Source: Lagierella massiliensis (GTDB taxonomy: Bacteria; Bacillota; Clostridia; Tissierellales; Peptoniphilaceae). Taken from it: 64,000 nucleotides of DNA. Shown here one piece after another: positions 35,551 to 56,805 of the stretch. Numbering within the stretch: the stretch's first letter is position 1; each line of letters starts with the position of its first letter. Under the pieces are notes generated by a model that worked only from the letters and a program-made list of their open reading frames with translations, searched no databases and was not told where the DNA came from. The stretch is taken from positions 930,001 to 994,000 of the forward strand of contig NZ_CYUO01000005.1 in assembly GCF_001407835.1 (NCBI RefSeq). The letters run 5' to 3'. The translations under genes were made by a program, and so were the position numbers.

Positions 35551-36516
35551 TTATCTCCCTAATCCAAATACTGTTAGTATCGAAAATACTATTGATAACG
35601 CTGTAAAAGCTGCAACAATTTTAGGTTCCTTATATCCCTTTAATTCATAGTGATGATGGATTGGGGACATTAAAAATACTCTTTTTTTATTTCTGGTTTT
35701 ATAGCTTATTACTTGAATTATTACAGACATCGTTTCAATAACATAAACTCCTCCAAGTATCACAAGGTAAAGAGGTGCGTTTAATATTAATGCCATCATA
35801 ACTAAGGCCCCACCTATTGCCATAGATCCAGTATCTCCCATAAATACCGATGCAGGGTTCGAATTATATATTAAAAACCCAATCAATGAACCAACAAATA
35901 TTGTTGAGAACACTGTCATTGATGAGTCTTTTAAAACTCCTATTATTGCAAGTGCCATAAATACCGGAATCGAAACAGAGGTTGCAAGACCATCAAGACC
36001 ATCTGTGATATTTGTTGCATTAACAGTTCCAATCATTATAAATGTAAGTATTGGGTATGTTAAAATTCCTAAGTTTAATTCTTTAGTTGTAAAAGGAATC
36101 TTAATCATTGAAATAGGTCTTGCTGATACCTTTGATGCTAAATATATTAATCCAAAACTCATAATTATTTGAAAAATTATCTTTTGAATTTCAGTTAATC
36201 CCAATGACCTTTTCATTACAAGTTTAAAAAAATCATCTACAAAACCAACAAGTCCAAATCCAAGCATACTTACAATTATAAGTATATTCTCATGAGTGTA
36301 CCCTTTAAATATAAATAACGTTATTAGGGTTGATATAATAAATATTATCCCACCCATTGTAGGCGTTCCTTGCTTTAACAAATGAGCTTTAGGCCCGTCA
36401 TCTCTTATACTCTGTCCTATTTTTGCTCTAACTAAAATTTTAATAATATACTTTCCAATTGCGATTGATATCAACATACTAACCAAAAGCATTGTAAGTA
36501 GTCTAAATATATCCAT
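35551..36516 (-). CDS. mraY: Phospho-MurNAc-pentapeptide transferase MraY
   Basis: MraY moves phospho-MurNAc-pentapeptide onto undecaprenyl phosphate, giving lipid I. The 321 residues form about ten membrane spans and carry the catalytic motifs TPTMGGIIF, GFVDDFFK (the DDD-like aspartates) and NATNITDGLDGLA, plus the C-terminal MSPIHHHYELKG histidine motif. It has its own promoter between the Crp-type gene and the start. Confidence 0.96.
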   Translation of the reverse strand: MDIFRLLTMLLVSMLISIAIGKYIIKILVRAKIGQSIRDDGPKAHLLKQGTPTMGGIIFIISTLITLFIFKGYTHENILIIVSMLGFGLVGFVDDFFKLVMKRSLGLTEIQKIIFQIIMSFGLIYLASKVSARPISMIKIPFTTKELNLGILTYPILTFIMIGTVNATNITDGLDGLATSVSIPVFMALAIIGVLKDSSMTVFSTIFVGSLIGFLIYNSNPASVFMGDTGSMAIGGALVMMALILNAPLYLVILGGVYVIETMSVIIQVISYKTRNKKRVFLMSPIHHHYELKGYKEPKIVAAFTALSIVFSILTVFGLGR

Positions 36517-36542
36517 ATTTTTTCTCCTTTACTCATCTTAAT

Positions 36543-36571
36543 ATTATATCCTAAAGAAGGTCTAATGTTAA
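36543..36571 (-). promoter_or_regulatory. Sigma-A promoter of mraY-murD-ftsW-murG-divIB
   Basis: TTAACA (36566-36571) and TATAAT (36543-36548), 17 bases apart, 27 bases before the mraY start. The -35 abuts the stop of the Crp-type gene, so the second wall-synthesis block can be transcribed independently of the first. Confidence 0.82.
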
Positions 36572-37252
36572 CTAAATAGTAAGTTCCGTCAAACCTTTTA
36601 AATCTATAATCTCTATTTCACCTTTTGGACATAATTTTATTAAACCCAAGTCTTCAAAGTGACTGAGTTTTCGAATCATAGTTTCCCTTGCTACTCCTGA
36701 AAAACTTCCAAGTTCCATCCTGTTCATATTGTGTTTTATCAATATTTCCCCAGAATCTTTTTTTACTCCATATCTATTTGCAAGGTCTATCAGCCCCTTT
36801 GCAACTTTCATATCCCCATTCATTACGGAGAGTCTATCAATTAACTCTTCACTTTTCCTTATTCTAAGATATGACTGAATTAGTATCGACTTTAGAAAAA
36901 GTTCATTATGCATTAGTACATTTAAAAAATCTTCCTTAGAAATTTTTAAAATTTCACATTTTGTAAGCGCTATCCCATTGTATAGATATGATTCGGATGT
37001 GATTAAATTAAGTCCACCAACAAAATCTTCATCTTTATATACATATAAAATCTGTTCCCTTCCATCAGACAAGTTCATTGATATTTTCATTGAACCGCTT
37101 TTTATGATGTACATATACAAAGCCCTATCTCCCGGGCGAAATATATATTCACCTTTATTTACGTCCACAAGTTTAACAGAATTAGATAATCTCTTTTTAT
37201 CTTCTTTTGATAAGTCCTTAAAAAGTTTTGTTTCTTTAATTATATCTTTCAT
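36572..37252 (-). CDS. Crp/Fnr-family transcriptional regulator
   Basis: A 226-residue regulator with an N-terminal cyclic-nucleotide-type beta barrel (GEYIFRPGDRALYMYIIKSG, about 33-52), a dimerisation helix and a C-terminal winged helix (MELGSFSGVARETMIRKLSHF, about 184-204). It lacks the N-terminal cysteine cluster of O2-sensing FNR proteins, and the cAMP-contact pattern is not obvious, so the signal is unknown. It stands between pbpB and mraY, splitting the wall cluster, with a terminator upstream and mraY promoter downstream. Whether it controls that promoter is open. Confidence 0.85.
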   Translation of the reverse strand: MKDIIKETKLFKDLSKEDKKRLSNSVKLVDVNKGEYIFRPGDRALYMYIIKSGSMKISMNLSDGREQILYVYKDEDFVGGLNLITSESYLYNGIALTKCEILKISKEDFLNVLMHNELFLKSILIQSYLRIRKSEELIDRLSVMNGDMKVAKGLIDLANRYGVKKDSGEILIKHNMNRMELGSFSGVARETMIRKLSHFEDLGLIKLCPKGEIEIIDLKGLTELTI

Positions 37253-37298
37253 TTTTCCTCCAAATATAATTATATATTAAAGACTTTAAATAATAAAA

Positions 37299-37322
37299 TA
37301 AGGCAGAGCATATGCTCCACCT
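37299..37322 (-). terminator. Terminator after pbpB
   Basis: Minus-strand hairpin GGTGGAGCA/TGCTCTGCC (nine pairs, one G-U) followed by ATTTTATTATTT. It separates mraZ-rsmH-ftsL-pbpB from the Crp-type gene. A second smaller hairpin (GAGTGATACTC) lies just before it, next to the pbpB stop. Confidence 0.75.
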
Positions 37323-37345
37323 TAAGAGTAAAGAGTATCACTCTG

Positions 37346-39592
37346 TCAATTATTATTTTGATTATCTTCCACATCTTCTTGGTCATCTTGCTCTTCATTA
37401 TCTTCTACATCATTATTGTTATCTTTATCATCATCTTTCTTTAAAGGCTCATATATAAGCTCTAAAGTGTCTTTTTGTCTTAAGAAATCATCAGCAGGTG
37501 GATTAGTCTTTATAATTCTCGTCTTTTTAGAGTCACCTGTATGAATTATCTTTAGATTTGTATCCTTTAATATCGATAAAGCTTCATTTTTATATTTACC
37601 AACTAAATCTGGTACTTTTACTGTTGATTCTCCAGAATCATCAGCTACGAGAGTTATAACCTTAGTATGATTAATTTTTGTTCCTGGGTCTATAGATTGA
37701 CTCTTTATTATAATACCATCATTATCAGATGTGTTAACTATTTCAATTTTAATTCCCTTAGCATTTGCCTTATTAACTGCATTTCTTAAAGTTTCACCTG
37801 TGAAGTCAGGAACTTCAACATCAGTAATGTCTGTTTCTTTGTTCACTTTATTTAAATTCTTAAGCTTTGCAATTTCATCGTTAATTTTTTTTGTAATTTC
37901 TCCTGCAACTGCATTCCCAGAGTTCATTCCAGTTGGCTCGTCTACTACAACAAGAACAGAATATTTTGGATCTTCCATAGGAAAAGCTGCATAAAAAGAT
38001 GCTATTGTCTTTTCAGATGTATATACGCCATCTTCAAGCTTTATAGTTGTACCTGACTTGCCTCCTACAGTATATTGAGAAGATTTTACCGCGTTAGCTC
38101 CTCCATTCTCAACATTATTTATCATAAGTTGCTTCATTCTATCGCTTGTGCTTTTAGATATAACCTGCCTCTTAACAAGTTCTTTATCATCTTCAATCTT
38201 TTTGTCTCCAACTTTATTTAAAACTCTTGGTGTAATTACATATCCACCATTTACAATTGCGTTTGCTGCAGTTATAACCTGTATTGGTGTTGCAGAAATT
38301 CCATGTCCATAAGACATCGTACAAAGTTGAGCTATATTCATACTTGAAGCTGAATCAGGTATAAGCCCCTTTTGTTCTCCAACCAGATCTATTCCTGTTA
38401 ATTCTCCAAATCCAAATGACTTTAGATATTGATGCATCTTAGCATATCCTATCTGTTCCGACATTTGAGCAAAGGATGGGTTACATGAATTTGCGAGAGC
38501 TTCCTCCATTGTTTGTTTCCCATGGGGATCATACCAGCTTACACATTTTATGGTAACTCCACTTGCAATATTGTAAAACCCTTTACATTCATAATTTGAG
38601 TTCTCATCAAACACTCCTTCTTCTAACCCAATTGCAGATGTTACCAACTTATAGACAGAACCTGGTTCATAAATATCACTTATACATTTATTTCTCCAAA
38701 TATCATAATATTTATTTAACCTTTCTTTTTCACTCAAACTTTCTAATTCTTTCTTTTCTTCTTTGTTTCTTCCCTGTCTTGGATTATTTGAATTAAATCT
38801 TGGATAATTTTCCATTGCGATGATCCTATTAGTCATAGGATCTGTAACAATAACAGATATAGACTTTGGTTTGTATTTTTCATTTGCTTCTTTTAAAATA
38901 TTACTAACTAAAGCAGAAATTCCTTGGTCTATATTTAATGTAATATCCTTTCCTATATCTGACTTGAACTCTTTATTTTCCTCAAAAGAAATAATACTTC
39001 CATTTCGTGAACCAGAGAAGATATTAAGACCATATTTACCTCTTAGATAATTATCATAATAACTCTCAACTCCATAAAGACCATTTCCATCGCTATTCGT
39101 AAAACCTAAAACATAAGAAAGCGTTGACCCTTCAGGATAATATCTTCTATTCTCAACAGTCAGACTTAAAGAGTTTTCATCCAATTCTCTAATTTTTTTT
39201 ACTTGTTCAGAAGTCAAATTTTCTTTAACCCTAATAATATCTTCACTATTTAAAACTTCATCAATTTCACTACTATCCATTCCAAGTATTGTAGAAAAGC
39301 CCTGAATTAGTTTGTTTTTTGAATTTTCTTTTAAATCCTTTGGAAAAAAATAAAGACAATTAACTTTTACATTCCTCGCAATTATATTTCCTGAAGAATC
39401 AAATATCTTACCTCTTTGTGCAGGTATTTTAACGACTTTCAATCTCTGTTGTGCCGCTCTCATCTTATACTTTGAATTATAAAGATATATCATTCTACCC
39501 GCAAAAATAAACACCATTATTATACTAAGTAAGAATATAGCTATTGTCCTATTTTTAAATTTTCTATCAAAATTAAATTTTCTATTTTTCAT
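37346..39592 (-). CDS. Class B penicillin-binding protein with PASTA domains (FtsI/SpoVD type)
   Basis: A septal transpeptidase that crosslinks peptidoglycan, partner of FtsW. The 748 residues hold a membrane anchor (about 14-34), a PBP dimerisation domain, and a transpeptidase domain with SVYK (Ser312, Lys315), SCN (369-371) and KSGT (512-515). Two PASTA domains follow (about 595-655 and 660-715), probably binding wall or lipid II. A 30-residue C-terminal tail made almost only of Asp, Glu, Asn and Gln ends the protein. The start overlaps ftsL by 11 bases. Confidence 0.94.
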   Translation of the reverse strand: MKNRKFNFDRKFKNRTIAIFLLSIIMVFIFAGRMIYLYNSKYKMRAAQQRLKVVKIPAQRGKIFDSSGNIIARNVKVNCLYFFPKDLKENSKNKLIQGFSTILGMDSSEIDEVLNSEDIIRVKENLTSEQVKKIRELDENSLSLTVENRRYYPEGSTLSYVLGFTNSDGNGLYGVESYYDNYLRGKYGLNIFSGSRNGSIISFEENKEFKSDIGKDITLNIDQGISALVSNILKEANEKYKPKSISVIVTDPMTNRIIAMENYPRFNSNNPRQGRNKEEKKELESLSEKERLNKYYDIWRNKCISDIYEPGSVYKLVTSAIGLEEGVFDENSNYECKGFYNIASGVTIKCVSWYDPHGKQTMEEALANSCNPSFAQMSEQIGYAKMHQYLKSFGFGELTGIDLVGEQKGLIPDSASSMNIAQLCTMSYGHGISATPIQVITAANAIVNGGYVITPRVLNKVGDKKIEDDKELVKRQVISKSTSDRMKQLMINNVENGGANAVKSSQYTVGGKSGTTIKLEDGVYTSEKTIASFYAAFPMEDPKYSVLVVVDEPTGMNSGNAVAGEITKKINDEIAKLKNLNKVNKETDITDVEVPDFTGETLRNAVNKANAKGIKIEIVNTSDNDGIIIKSQSIDPGTKINHTKVITLVADDSGESTVKVPDLVGKYKNEALSILKDTNLKIIHTGDSKKTRIIKTNPPADDFLRQKDTLELIYEPLKKDDDKDNNNDVEDNEEQDDQEDVEDNQNNN

Positions 39593-52671: not shown

Positions 52672-53917
52672 CCTTTAAATGTTTTTTAAATTCTCCGATT
52701 AAATAAAGGGAACCGGTTATGATAATTTTTTCTCCTGGTAAAATTTCATCTCTAATAAAGCTACAAGCCTCTTCAATGCTATTTGTTATTACGATTTCTT
52801 TATTATACTCTCCCAGCTTCTTAGCAAACTCTTTTGGCTCCATTGCCCTTTCATAATCAATTTTAGTAATTATAACTCTCTTTGAAAATTTTATTATATC
52901 TTCCAGATGGTCGATAATATTTTTATCCTTCATGGATCCAATAACGAGATTAAAATCTTTTAGGTTAAGCCTTTCAACATTTTCTCTTAAAGCTCTTAAA
53001 CCTTCAAAGTTATGAGCTCCGTCCACTATTATAAGTGAATTCTTTTTCAAAACTTCCATTCTACCTTCAAAGTAAAGCTCTTTGACTGCAGATTTGATTT
53101 TTTGAACATCTGGGTTTTTAATTATTTCATTAAGTGCTAAAATAGCGAGGCAAATATTTGATATTTGGTAAGTTCCTAAAACCTTTGTTTCAAAGTCTAT
53201 ACCCATATACTCAAACTTTGAACCGCTATATGAAATTTCTTTTGCAATATAATCTGTATTTTTCAAAAATTTTAGTTCTGCATTTTTATTTTTTGCTTCC
53301 TTTAAAATAACTTCATCTACAGAGTCTTCGTGCTCAAATGAAATCACTTTGCCATTTTCTTTTATTATTCCAGCCTTGTGGTAGGCAATCTCTTCCAAAG
53401 TATTTCCAAGCCTATCCTGATGGTCGAAGTCAATTGTAGTAATAATACTTAGTAGATTCGAGTCAAAGATATTTGTAATATCAAATCTTCCACCAATGCC
53501 AGTTTCAACTACAAAATAGTCAGGCCTTTCATTATCAAATACCTTTAGGGCAAGGAGAAATGAAACTTCAAAATAATTTAAACTCTTTAGGTCTTCGGTT
53601 TCTATTTTTTCTAAAATTTCTTCAACATTTTTGATTAAAACCTCTTCTGAAATTGGTTTTGAATCTATTTTTATTCTCTCCTCGTACTTTTCTAAATGAG
53701 GAGATGAAAAATGCATTACTTTATGACCCTGCTCTTTTAAAAGAGTTGATAAAAAAGTTCCAACTGAGCCCTTGCCATTTGTACCGGCGATTTGAATTAT
53801 TTTACTTTCATCTATGTTAAGTTTGAGCTTTCTAAGGACTCTTTTAAAATTAGAAGAGTCCTCACTATGCCCATAATTAACATTTTCTATTAAATCAAGA
53901 GCTTGTTTATATTCCAT
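52664..53917 (-). CDS. folC: Folylpolyglutamate synthase / dihydrofolate synthase
   Basis: FolC attaches glutamates to folates and, in bifunctional forms, makes dihydrofolate. The 417 residues show the Mur-ligase fold: IQIAGTNGKGSVGTFL-type P-loop (about 42-56, AGTNGKGS), HFSSPHLEKYEERI, ETGIGGRFDITNIF and the C-terminal VDGAHNFEG. It overlaps valS by 11 bases, a common Firmicutes pairing. In this operon it sits with hpt, giving a nucleotide and one-carbon theme. Confidence 0.95.
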   Translation of the reverse strand: MEYKQALDLIENVNYGHSEDSSNFKRVLRKLKLNIDESKIIQIAGTNGKGSVGTFLSTLLKEQGHKVMHFSSPHLEKYEERIKIDSKPISEEVLIKNVEEILEKIETEDLKSLNYFEVSFLLALKVFDNERPDYFVVETGIGGRFDITNIFDSNLLSIITTIDFDHQDRLGNTLEEIAYHKAGIIKENGKVISFEHEDSVDEVILKEAKNKNAELKFLKNTDYIAKEISYSGSKFEYMGIDFETKVLGTYQISNICLAILALNEIIKNPDVQKIKSAVKELYFEGRMEVLKKNSLIIVDGAHNFEGLRALRENVERLNLKDFNLVIGSMKDKNIIDHLEDIIKFSKRVIITKIDYERAMEPKEFAKKLGEYNKEIVITNSIEEACSFIRDEILPGEKIIITGSLYLIGEFKKHLKDE

Positions 53918-56561
53918 TTACCTTTTCTTTCACCTTTTGTAGTGCTGTGTCAACTTCTTCTTTCATTGAAATATACTTTTCAAGTTTTTCTCTCTCTTCT
54001 GAAACAACTTTTTCTGGAGCTTTGTCCACAAAGTTTTTGTTAGAAAGCTTTCCTTCTGCCCTCTTAATTTCTCCTGCAAGTCTGTCTTGTTCCTTTGTAA
54101 GTCTGTCAAGTTCTTTGCTATAGTCTATGAGTTCATCAAGAGGTATAAAGCCCTTAAAACCATTTTGTACTATGGATATAGAGTCTTCTGAAGTCAAATC
54201 TTTGTCTGCAAAATGAGTCTCAGAAACTGAAGCAACTGTCTTAAAGTGATGAGCAATATTTTCAAGTTTTGTTTTAATTTCGTCATTTTCAACTAAAATA
54301 AACAAATCTGCCTTCTTGCTTGGTGCAATATCAAGCTCTGCCCTTGCATTTCTAATTGCCTTTGTAGTTTCAATTAATATTTCTATCTCTTCAACCTCTT
54401 CTTCAAAGTTATATGAACTATCATATTCAGGCCAAGTTTCATTTATTAACATATCATTTTTATTCGGCATAATTGAGTAAATCTCCTCTGTGATATATGG
54501 CATAAATGGATGAAGTAGTTTTATAACATTGCCTAACACATGGATTAAGGTTGACTGCGCTGCCACTTCAGACTCTTCGTTGCCACCTTCATATAGTCTT
54601 GGCTTTACAAGTTCAATATACCAGTCACAGAATTCATTCCAAATAAAATCATATATCTTATCAGCAGCAAGACCTATTTCGTACTTATCTATATTTTGAT
54701 CAACATTTTTAATCAAACTATTTAATTCAGATATTATCCACTTATCTTCAACTTCTAACTTAACATCTTTAATATCTTTTATCTTTTCTTCTTTTAGATT
54801 CATAAAGATAAATCTTGTTGCATTCCAAAGTTTGTTTGCGAAGTTTCTATTAGCTTCTACCCTCTCCATGTAAAATCTCATGTCATTTCCTGGAGAGTTA
54901 CCAGTTACAAGGGTAAATCTAAGGGCGTCTGCTCCATAGTTGTCGATAACTTCTAATGGGTCAATACCATTGTTCAGCGACTTAGACATCTTTCTTCCTT
55001 GAGAGTCACGAATAAGTCCAGTAAAGTATACATCTTTAAAAGGTAGCTCTCCCATGTTGTATATTGATGAAAATACCATTCTAATAACCCAGAAGAAAAT
55101 TATGTCATATCCTGTTACAAGTACATTTGTCGGGAAGAAATATTCTAAATCTTCAGTCTCTTGTGGCCAACCTAAAGTTGAGAAAGGCCATAGTGCAGAT
55201 GAAAACCAAGTGTCTAATGTGTCTGGATCTTGAACAACATTTGCACTTCCGCACTTTGGACAAGTATCAACATGTTCTTTGGATACAATCACTTCTCCAC
55301 AGTCTTTACAATAATAAACTGGGATTCTGTGGCCCCACCAAAGTTGTCTTGAAATACACCAGTCTCTTGTATTTGTAAGCCAGTTTTCATAGGTTTTACC
55401 AAGTCTACTTGGAATTAGGTTAAGCTTTCCATCTTCATAGGCCTCAAGAGCTTCCTTGGCAAATTTTCCCATTTTAACAAACCATTGTTTTGATACAACA
55501 GGTTCAATAACTGTTCCACATCTTTCACAGTGTCCTACTGCGTGATTATGGTCTTCTATCTTTTCAATTAGACCAAGTTTTTCCAAGTCCTTAATCATTT
55601 CTTTTCTTGCTTCAATTCTCTCCATTCCAGAGTATTTTCCGTAGCCTTCAGATATATGTCCTGTTTCATCTATTACGATACATTGCCCAAGATTATGTCG
55701 TTCACCAACTTCAAAGTCGTTAGGGTCGTGGGATGGAGTAATTTTTACCATACCTGTACCAAATTCCATTTCTACATATTCGTCTGCGATTATAGGAATC
55801 TCTCTTTCTACAAGAGGCAATAATATTTTTTTCCCAACAATATCTTTATATCTTCCATCTTCAGGATTAACAGCAACAGCCAAGTCACCAAGCATTGTTT
55901 CAGGTCTTGTAGTGGCAATTACTATATAGTCATCTTCATCCTTAAAAGGATACTTTATATGCCAAAGCTTTCCGTCTTCATCAACATGTTCAACTTCTGC
56001 GTCAGATATAGCTGTACCACATGACACACACCAGTTTACAATACGGTCACCTCTATATATAAGACCTTCCTTATACATCTTTATAAATACTTCTAAAACC
56101 GCATCTGAAAGATGTTCGTCAAGTGTAAAGGCCTCTCTTGACCAGTCACATGAAACTCCAAGCTTTTGAAGTTGTTTTTTTATATTTCCACCATAAATTT
56201 CAGTCCAGTCCCAAGCCTCTTCTAAAAACTTTTCTCTTCCTAAATCCTTTTTACTTTTTCCTTCAGATTCAATCTTTTGAACAACCTTCATTTCAGTTGA
56301 AATACTTGCGTGGTCTGTTCCTGGTATCCAAAGGGCACTATAGCCTTGCATTCTCTTTCTTCTTATAAGAATATCTTGTAATGTATTGTTTAGTGCATGT
56401 CCCAAGTGTAGTACACCAGTAACATTTGGTGGTGGCATAACAATTGTAAAAGGCTTTTTATCCTTATCCACTTCTGCTCTAAAATATCCATTATCCTTCC
56501 ATGTTTTGTAAATTTTTTCTTCAAATGATTTGGGATCATAAGTTTTTTCTAAATTTTTCAT
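53907..56561 (-). CDS. valS: Valyl-tRNA synthetase
   Basis: This class I synthetase charges tRNA-Val. The 884 residues include the HIGH-type motif PPPNVTGVLHLGHALNN (about 43-59), a CP1 editing domain with TTRPETMLGD, the KMSKS motif (GRKMSKSLNN, about 520-530), zinc-like cysteine pairs (CKDCGEVI; CPKCGSAN), and a C-terminal coiled coil that clamps tRNA. Its T-box leader lies upstream. Confidence 0.97.
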   Translation of the reverse strand: MKNLEKTYDPKSFEEKIYKTWKDNGYFRAEVDKDKKPFTIVMPPPNVTGVLHLGHALNNTLQDILIRRKRMQGYSALWIPGTDHASISTEMKVVQKIESEGKSKKDLGREKFLEEAWDWTEIYGGNIKKQLQKLGVSCDWSREAFTLDEHLSDAVLEVFIKMYKEGLIYRGDRIVNWCVSCGTAISDAEVEHVDEDGKLWHIKYPFKDEDDYIVIATTRPETMLGDLAVAVNPEDGRYKDIVGKKILLPLVEREIPIIADEYVEMEFGTGMVKITPSHDPNDFEVGERHNLGQCIVIDETGHISEGYGKYSGMERIEARKEMIKDLEKLGLIEKIEDHNHAVGHCERCGTVIEPVVSKQWFVKMGKFAKEALEAYEDGKLNLIPSRLGKTYENWLTNTRDWCISRQLWWGHRIPVYYCKDCGEVIVSKEHVDTCPKCGSANVVQDPDTLDTWFSSALWPFSTLGWPQETEDLEYFFPTNVLVTGYDIIFFWVIRMVFSSIYNMGELPFKDVYFTGLIRDSQGRKMSKSLNNGIDPLEVIDNYGADALRFTLVTGNSPGNDMRFYMERVEANRNFANKLWNATRFIFMNLKEEKIKDIKDVKLEVEDKWIISELNSLIKNVDQNIDKYEIGLAADKIYDFIWNEFCDWYIELVKPRLYEGGNEESEVAAQSTLIHVLGNVIKLLHPFMPYITEEIYSIMPNKNDMLINETWPEYDSSYNFEEEVEEIEILIETTKAIRNARAELDIAPSKKADLFILVENDEIKTKLENIAHHFKTVASVSETHFADKDLTSEDSISIVQNGFKGFIPLDELIDYSKELDRLTKEQDRLAGEIKRAEGKLSNKNFVDKAPEKVVSEEREKLEKYISMKEEVDTALQKVKEKVNGI

Positions 56562-56607: not shown

Positions 56608-56805
56608 AAAAAAACCTTCCATCCACTTAGGACGAAAGGTTCCGTGTTACCACCTAATTTTCATTATTCAATGACACTCAAATGATTATAAAGTAATCAA
56701 CTTTACTCCAAAGCAACCTTCAATTATAACATTTAGAAGATTTCACCAAACTCTTCCTCTCTGAAAAATATTTTTAATTTACTCCTCTTCTTCAACGTAA
56801 ATATC
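56608..56805 (-). promoter_or_regulatory. T-box leader (Val) of the valS operon
   Basis: Minus-strand leader with T-box sequence AGGTGGTAACACGG (about 56641-56655) and terminator hairpin AACCTTTCGTCC/GGATGGAAGGTT followed by seven T (56608-56640). Stem I elements CAGAGAGG and GTTTGGTGAA precede a candidate specifier GTT (Val) at 56715-56717; the spacing from GGTGAA matches that in the Asp leader. A GTA a few bases on is a weaker alternative. Confidence 0.92.

Follow-up and report, generated by a model that had tools for sequence, protein, structure and literature searches.

A probable orphan of a pyruvate formate-lyase-linked CRP subfamily between pbpB and mraY of Lagierella massiliensis

The 64,000-nucleotide stretch of Lagierella massiliensis DNA analysed here (the window) carries a gene for a CRP/FNR-family regulator of 226 residues in the midst of its cell-wall and division cluster. 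The regulator descends from a CRP subfamily that is linked to pyruvate formate-lyase (pfl) in this family of anaerobes, and we consider it quite probable that it is a conserved orphan of that subfamily, probably acquired laterally, and a mere hitch-hiker as far as wall synthesis is concerned. The reading draws on computed domains, synteny, motif, promoter spacing, co-occurrence, the lack of a pflB match, tree conflict and purifying selection, and on what we infer, namely activation, lateral transfer, the absence of a role in wall synthesis and read-through.

The regulator and the transcription boundary it occupies

The window belongs to a genome (G000) of 1.83 Mb that is 99.75% complete. On the minus strand of the window the gene order is mraZ, mraW, ftsL, pbpB, regulator, mraY, murD, ftsW, murG, ftsQ and ftsZ; the names pbpB, ftsL, mraY, murD and ftsQ were confirmed by HMM, whilst mraZ, mraW, ftsW, murG and ftsZ are presumed from conserved order. 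The regulator ORF (36572..37252, minus) is flanked upstream by pbpB, encoding a SpoVD-like transpeptidase with PASTA domains (37346..39592, minus; HMM and Pfam), and downstream by mraY (35551..36516, minus; HMM and ORF list).

Pfam identifies an N-terminal cNMP-type effector domain (cNMP_binding, PF00027, 3e-22) and a C-terminal Crp-type helix-turn-helix domain (HTH_Crp_2, PF13545, 9e-12), both above gathering scores, and the predicted structure and its PDB matches likewise place the protein in the CRP/FNR superfamily. The predicted structure (mean pLDDT 88.9, pTM 0.61) backs the fold and does not indicate the ligand, with TM-scores by query length of 0.45-0.64 among the 50 Foldseek PDB matches listed. 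GlxR and mycobacterial CRP are the best solved relatives (phmmer E 1e-17 to 4e-16, top Foldseek ranks); both bind cAMP, and they are ~23-24% identical to the window regulator in structural alignments. The counterpart in the congener Mediannikoviicoccus vaginalis Marseille-Q5883 (G002) is 85% identical.

The initial annotation of a Crp/Fnr-family gene without FNR cysteines between pbpB and mraY is borne out. Only two cysteines are present (residues 99 and 208), neither of them conserved across the subfamily; the N-terminal cysteines that ligate the 4Fe-4S cluster of FNR proper are missing, the RE at the recognition positions is not of the FNR type, and the protein scores 52 bits against the NCBIfam Fnr model (cut-off 228). 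Its score against the CRP equivalog model is 66 bits (cut-off 266). In cAMP-responsive CRP, a Glu and an Arg of the phosphate-binding cassette contact cAMP. The regulator, aligned to GlxR, instead has Gly80 and Tyr89 at these two positions, and in 36 regulator rows position 80 is Gly or Ala and position 89 is Tyr, with N82, Y89 and Y91 invariant (36/36), a difference from E. coli CRP. From the cysteine content and from Gly80 and Tyr89, control by an FNR-type cluster or by cAMP was judged unlikely, and cAMP is an unlikely ligand of this protein. The recognition helix, on the other hand, retains R189, E190 and R194 (equivalents of R180, E181 and R185), which are invariant in alignment A1 and characteristic of TGTGA-type specificity; the fold and domains, the R-E-x-x-x-R residues and the TGTGA-type half site are all common to E. 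coli CRP and the window subfamily.

The terminator reported ahead of the regulator is confirmed by pattern and RNA fold. The intrinsic terminator after pbpB (37299..37324, minus) consists of a stem (37324-37299) with a T-rich tail, and its fold has -16 kcal/mol (z -5.1; 0/200 shuffles equally stable); M. vaginalis keeps it at -18.9 kcal/mol. A weak candidate promoter of the regulator itself, TTTAAA-16-TATATT (37263..37290, minus), matches the consensus at 9/12 positions and belongs to a class no more frequent than chance. The near-consensus mraY promoter, TTAACA-17-TATAAT, likewise stands as first described: it spans 36571-36543 with its -35 at 36566..36571 and its -10 at 36543..36548 (both minus), agrees with the consensus at 11/12 positions, and its -35 begins at 36571, immediately past the regulator's TAG stop (36574-36572). 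The stretch is AT-rich and the pattern alone is at chance level (29 promoter-like sites in the surrounding 5 kb against 27.8 expected, with a second 11/12 site inside mraY); the promoter is supported because it is conserved in the congener, which has the same two hexamers 17 nt apart and several altered spacer bases. No terminator-like site was found on the minus strand between the regulator and mraY, so read-through from one into the other would be expected.

In the window, the ORFs left over from mraZ to ftsZ include no candidate for ftsA, murE, murF or murC, as had been remarked, although for murE and murF this absence at the junction is normal for the family. pbpB directly precedes mraY at 15 of 17 loci outside the genus, with gaps of 24-190 bp between tblastn ends, and the other two loci (L106, L107) have no pbpB ahead of mraY; the absence of murE and murF from the junction is a separate matter from the insertion. 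Elsewhere in the window, a T-box leader (56625-56804, minus) lies upstream of an 884-residue ORF (53907..56561). Genus g22 has a pair of DUF881 genes and a single DUF1290 gene separating ftsQ from ftsZ (L113:1770-3518), where no such ORFs were found in the window or in L103.

The proposed comparison of the locus across the family set the position of the regulator apart. Relatives of the regulator occur as one copy per genome in 44 of 130 family genomes (E <= 1e-30), and adjoin mraY in two of these, the window genome and M. vaginalis. In 41 of the other 42, mraY lies on a different contig or no closer than 33 kb, and the last (G013) has no mraY match. Among cell-wall loci of other genera, the 17 that were read all lack the regulator (0/17), and in a third congener (G001, 65% complete) neither gene of the junction was found. 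Absence from this place in near relatives, which the initial annotation had held would tell against it, is thus true outside the genus, while the one complete-enough congener has the regulator there.

The sister genus g19 (G020, G119 and G120) shows what the boundary may have looked like before. All three of its genomes have the same gap without the regulator, yet a GGC...GCC hairpin sequence there precedes TATAAT and TGAGTAAAGGAG ahead of mraY (3/3), a leader whose counterpart in the window is TATAATATTAAGATGAGTAAAGGAG. The hairpin folds with -14.4 kcal/mol in G119 (z -5.4) and -16.7 in G020 (z -6.5), and the pattern search calls a terminator in G020 only. Because both the hairpin and the mraY -10 and leader are present without the regulator, the latter appears to have entered an existing transcription boundary. 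No promoter pattern was reported at the g19 pbpB-mraY gap, where TTAACA is unmatched at that strength, and the -35 half of the mraY promoter may have arrived with the insertion. Of the promoter previously called new, then, the -35 hexamer has no match in the sister genus, whereas the -10, the leader and the hairpin after pbpB pre-exist there.

A subfamily linked to pyruvate formate-lyase

The regulator and pfl tend to occur together. Of the 44 genomes that carry the regulator, 32 have pflB, as do 3 of the 86 that lack it, a strong PflB match being defined as a best E below 1e-200 (35 genomes; 15 further genomes have weak matches only) and the query matching TIGR01255 at 1174 bits. In 11 of 20 regulator neighbourhoods read, pflB and pflA lie directly before the regulator, and in three of these 11 PflA and the regulator form a single ORF of 501-506 residues; in the remaining 9/20, pfl is not adjacent. 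When the fused protein was used as query against 249 genomes of the order, 39 matched (E <= 1e-70), and among them were nine stop-free, one-frame PflA-regulator fusions, all in Peptoniphilaceae and spread over five genera. These are the single ORFs L098:5430-6944 (plus), L097:6227-7732 (minus) and L095:5518-7038 (plus), and those of G127, G128, G109, G018, G030 and G118. In all three fusions scanned, Pfam recognises a single chain with radical SAM, Fe-S, cNMP and HTH domains. In another family of the order (G049, L244), pflA lies beside a regulator relative unfused, with two stops between or within them. In the open-access PMC literature we found neither a pfl-linked CRP regulator nor a PflA-CRP fusion described. 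By sequence the window regulator is kin to those that adjoin pflA or are joined to it in one ORF.

The palindrome GTGA-N6-TCAC occurs in 28 of 30 stretches upstream of pflB (28 of 450 nt and two shorter), and before pflB in three of five genomes added, the exceptions being G011 and G099. In total the site precedes pflB in 31/35 genomes. Where the regulator is present the tally is 31/32, G127 being the sole one that lacks the site, and where the regulator is missing it is 0/3 (G011, G019, G099; Fisher p 0.0006, a value that ignores genome kinship). By comparison, 290,610 bases of 18 cell-wall loci contain two exact sites. In 25/28 stretches the distance from the site centre to the start of a hexamer that matches TATAAT in at least five of six positions is exactly 29 nt, with no more than three at any other distance. 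Class II activator sites are centred at about -41.5 from the transcription start, with the -10 element at -12 to -7; a -10 that starts 29 nt from the site centre therefore puts the palindrome at about -41.5, as in class II promoters of CRP. The subfamily's usual task in the family would thus be to activate pflB-pflA, using a GTGATTnnAATCAC site whose centre is near this position. The site also precedes pflB in genomes that encode the regulator at another place (such as G022, G129-G133, G027, G119 and G120), which favours action in trans. Outside the family, two genomes of the order have the palindrome ~100 nt before a relative of the regulator (L018:1393, L019:1389), which would fit autoregulation.

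FNR, which belongs to the same superfamily as the window regulator, has pfl among its targets in E. coli, and E. coli CRP governs a global carbon regulon, whereas the partner genes of the window subfamily are pflBA. The assignment of the site to the subfamily agrees with the rule, given in PMC1274295, that links R-E-x-x-x-R recognition residues to a TGTGA-type site. In the same source, the site predicted for HcpR of Desulfovibrio, wTGTGAnnnnnnTCACAw, and for related CRP/FNR regulators of anaerobes is nearly the same as the subfamily's, although the main targets of HcpR are hcp and frdX and the conserved neighbour here is pflBA.

Twelve of the 44 regulator genomes, G000 and G002 included, have no PflB match (none at E <= 1e-30 in these two), and the window genome accordingly shows no pflB with a palindrome before it. 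In two other genera of this kind the palindrome recurs elsewhere. Among 11 metN genes from the 12 pfl-less genomes, it precedes metN in g16 (3/3) and in g22 (4/4 having metN), and is absent before metN in G000, G002, G020 and G149. All seven site-bearing leaders (L213-L219) carry a SAM riboswitch with the palindrome just before it. In g16 a TATAAT lies at the class II distance from the palindrome; in g22 the palindrome abuts a TTGACA -35 (4/4), an arrangement for which repression would be as likely as activation. The metN gene of G149 has a T-box leader (L223:2571-2801, minus), not a SAM riboswitch. One of 11 formate/nitrite transporter genes examined, in G105 (g22), is preceded by GTGATCATAGTCAC and a TATAAT at class II distance (L186:1501-1542 and 1574-2347).

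Targets in the window genus and the question of wall synthesis

It had been suggested that the regulator couples wall-precursor synthesis to an intracellular signal or else is a hitch-hiker. Direct control of mraY and the later genes in response to a metabolite would now have to run through a site other than the subfamily's, and we regard it as improbable. The exact palindrome is absent from the window, and in the window as a whole matches with two or three mismatches do not exceed chance (39 found and 45.7 expected for GTGATTNNAATCAC with up to three mismatches; 235 and 274.8, respectively, for TGTGANNNNNNTCACA), so that the binding site looked for at the mraY promoter did not materialise. 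The R-E-x-x-x-R residues that contact DNA are unchanged, which leads one to expect the subfamily's site, and the mraY promoter boxes are near enough to consensus that an activator is unneeded. In favour of such control are a 6-bp palindrome, GTTAAC, the only inverted repeat at the -35, which it covers in both congeners, the lack of a terminator between regulator and mraY, and a dN/dS of the regulator like that of its neighbours; the junction is kept in both congeners, which is also what functional coupling would give. Control of mraY via the subfamily's palindrome was ruled out on sequence. With the regulator beside mraY in 2/44 genomes and no site, signal coupling is unsupported and the hitch-hiker option is favoured. 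The mraY gene would then lie outside the regulator's control through the subfamily's site, and the sole cis effect to be expected would be read-through.

As a probable hitch-hiker at this locus, the regulator most likely acts in trans on a few promoters. The window genome has four exact GTGA-N6-TCAC sites against 17 for the backward control, and the DNA specificity of its regulator may have shifted. Three of the four lie within ORFs. The fourth and sole intergenic site, GTGAACGTGTTCAC (L150:1470-1556), sits just past a TATAAT-like box and before the gene for an Opp-like ABC permease, a repressor-like placement; the permease locus has no DNA match in G002, an empty result of low weight. One degenerate site pattern gave 60 hits in G000 (48 backward) and 65 in G002 (72 backward), and another, on both strands, gave 16 (31 backward) and 12 (41 backward), respectively; no target list is given for G000 because these counts resemble the backward controls. 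In G000 and G002, neither metN nor the genes for formate/nitrite transporters have the palindrome in the 400 nt read before them.

Origin, selection and meaning

The trees of the cluster and of the regulator disagree. In a FastTree tree of 19 genomes, based on a concatenation of five cell-wall proteins, the window genus (g1) groups with g19 (support 1.0). In the tree of 36 regulators, the window genus falls in a seven-row group with g22 (99/98), with the inner order unsettled, and g19 in the opposite ten-row group (100/99). Constraining the regulators of g1 and g19 together is rejected (p-AU 0.0003, for a grouping picked after viewing the tree). Lateral acquisition is the simplest reading, in which a copy kin to another genus's genes would have been inserted between the terminator after pbpB and the -10 and leader of mraY. 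The conflict could instead reflect an old duplication, in which an ancestor had two copies, the window genus and g19 kept different ones and the regulator moved by rearrangement. Both sides of the regulator tree are deep, and no remains of mobile elements were noticed in the short flanks read, which speaks for this; the single copy in each of the 44 genomes (E <= 1e-30), by contrast, would require many paired losses, and we hold a duplication to be possible and considerably less probable than acquisition of the gene from outside.

Between G000 and G002 the regulator has a dN/dS of 0.044, against 0.037-0.128 for ten neighbours, at a dS of 1.76 that is near saturation. It looks like a working gene under purifying selection. 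That the gene is a decaying remnant, which lost its target along with pfl and is drifting from use, would accord with the missing pflB match and with motif-bearing targets not being identified in G000; it sits poorly with a gene intact in both congeners, its low dN/dS (near-saturated dS included) and a conserved recognition helix, and we give it little credence.

The PFL-activating enzyme is SAM- and Fe-S-dependent. The tether to PflA in five genera, the predicted activation of pflBA and the site before SAM-riboswitch-bearing metN in two pfl-less genera suggest, as a conjecture to which we give a low probability, that the subfamily responds to the status of glycyl-radical and SAM metabolism. 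The PflA-Crp fusion might then be an activase and a transcription factor in one, gated by the enzyme domain or the state of its substrate, and the window protein might sense the same signal on its own and serve a rewired regulon.

For the organism, these results remove a tempting and unsupported claim, that the first membrane step of wall synthesis is under signal control. For the family, the relatives of the regulator, that is the pfl-linked CRP subfamily and its PflA fusions, are more interesting than the insertion itself. They provide a little-studied family of anaerobes with a concrete predicted regulon, in which a CRP-type protein would activate pyruvate formate-lyase from a defined site at a defined spacing, together with natural PflA-regulator fusions and a regulator that persists where the enzyme is absent.
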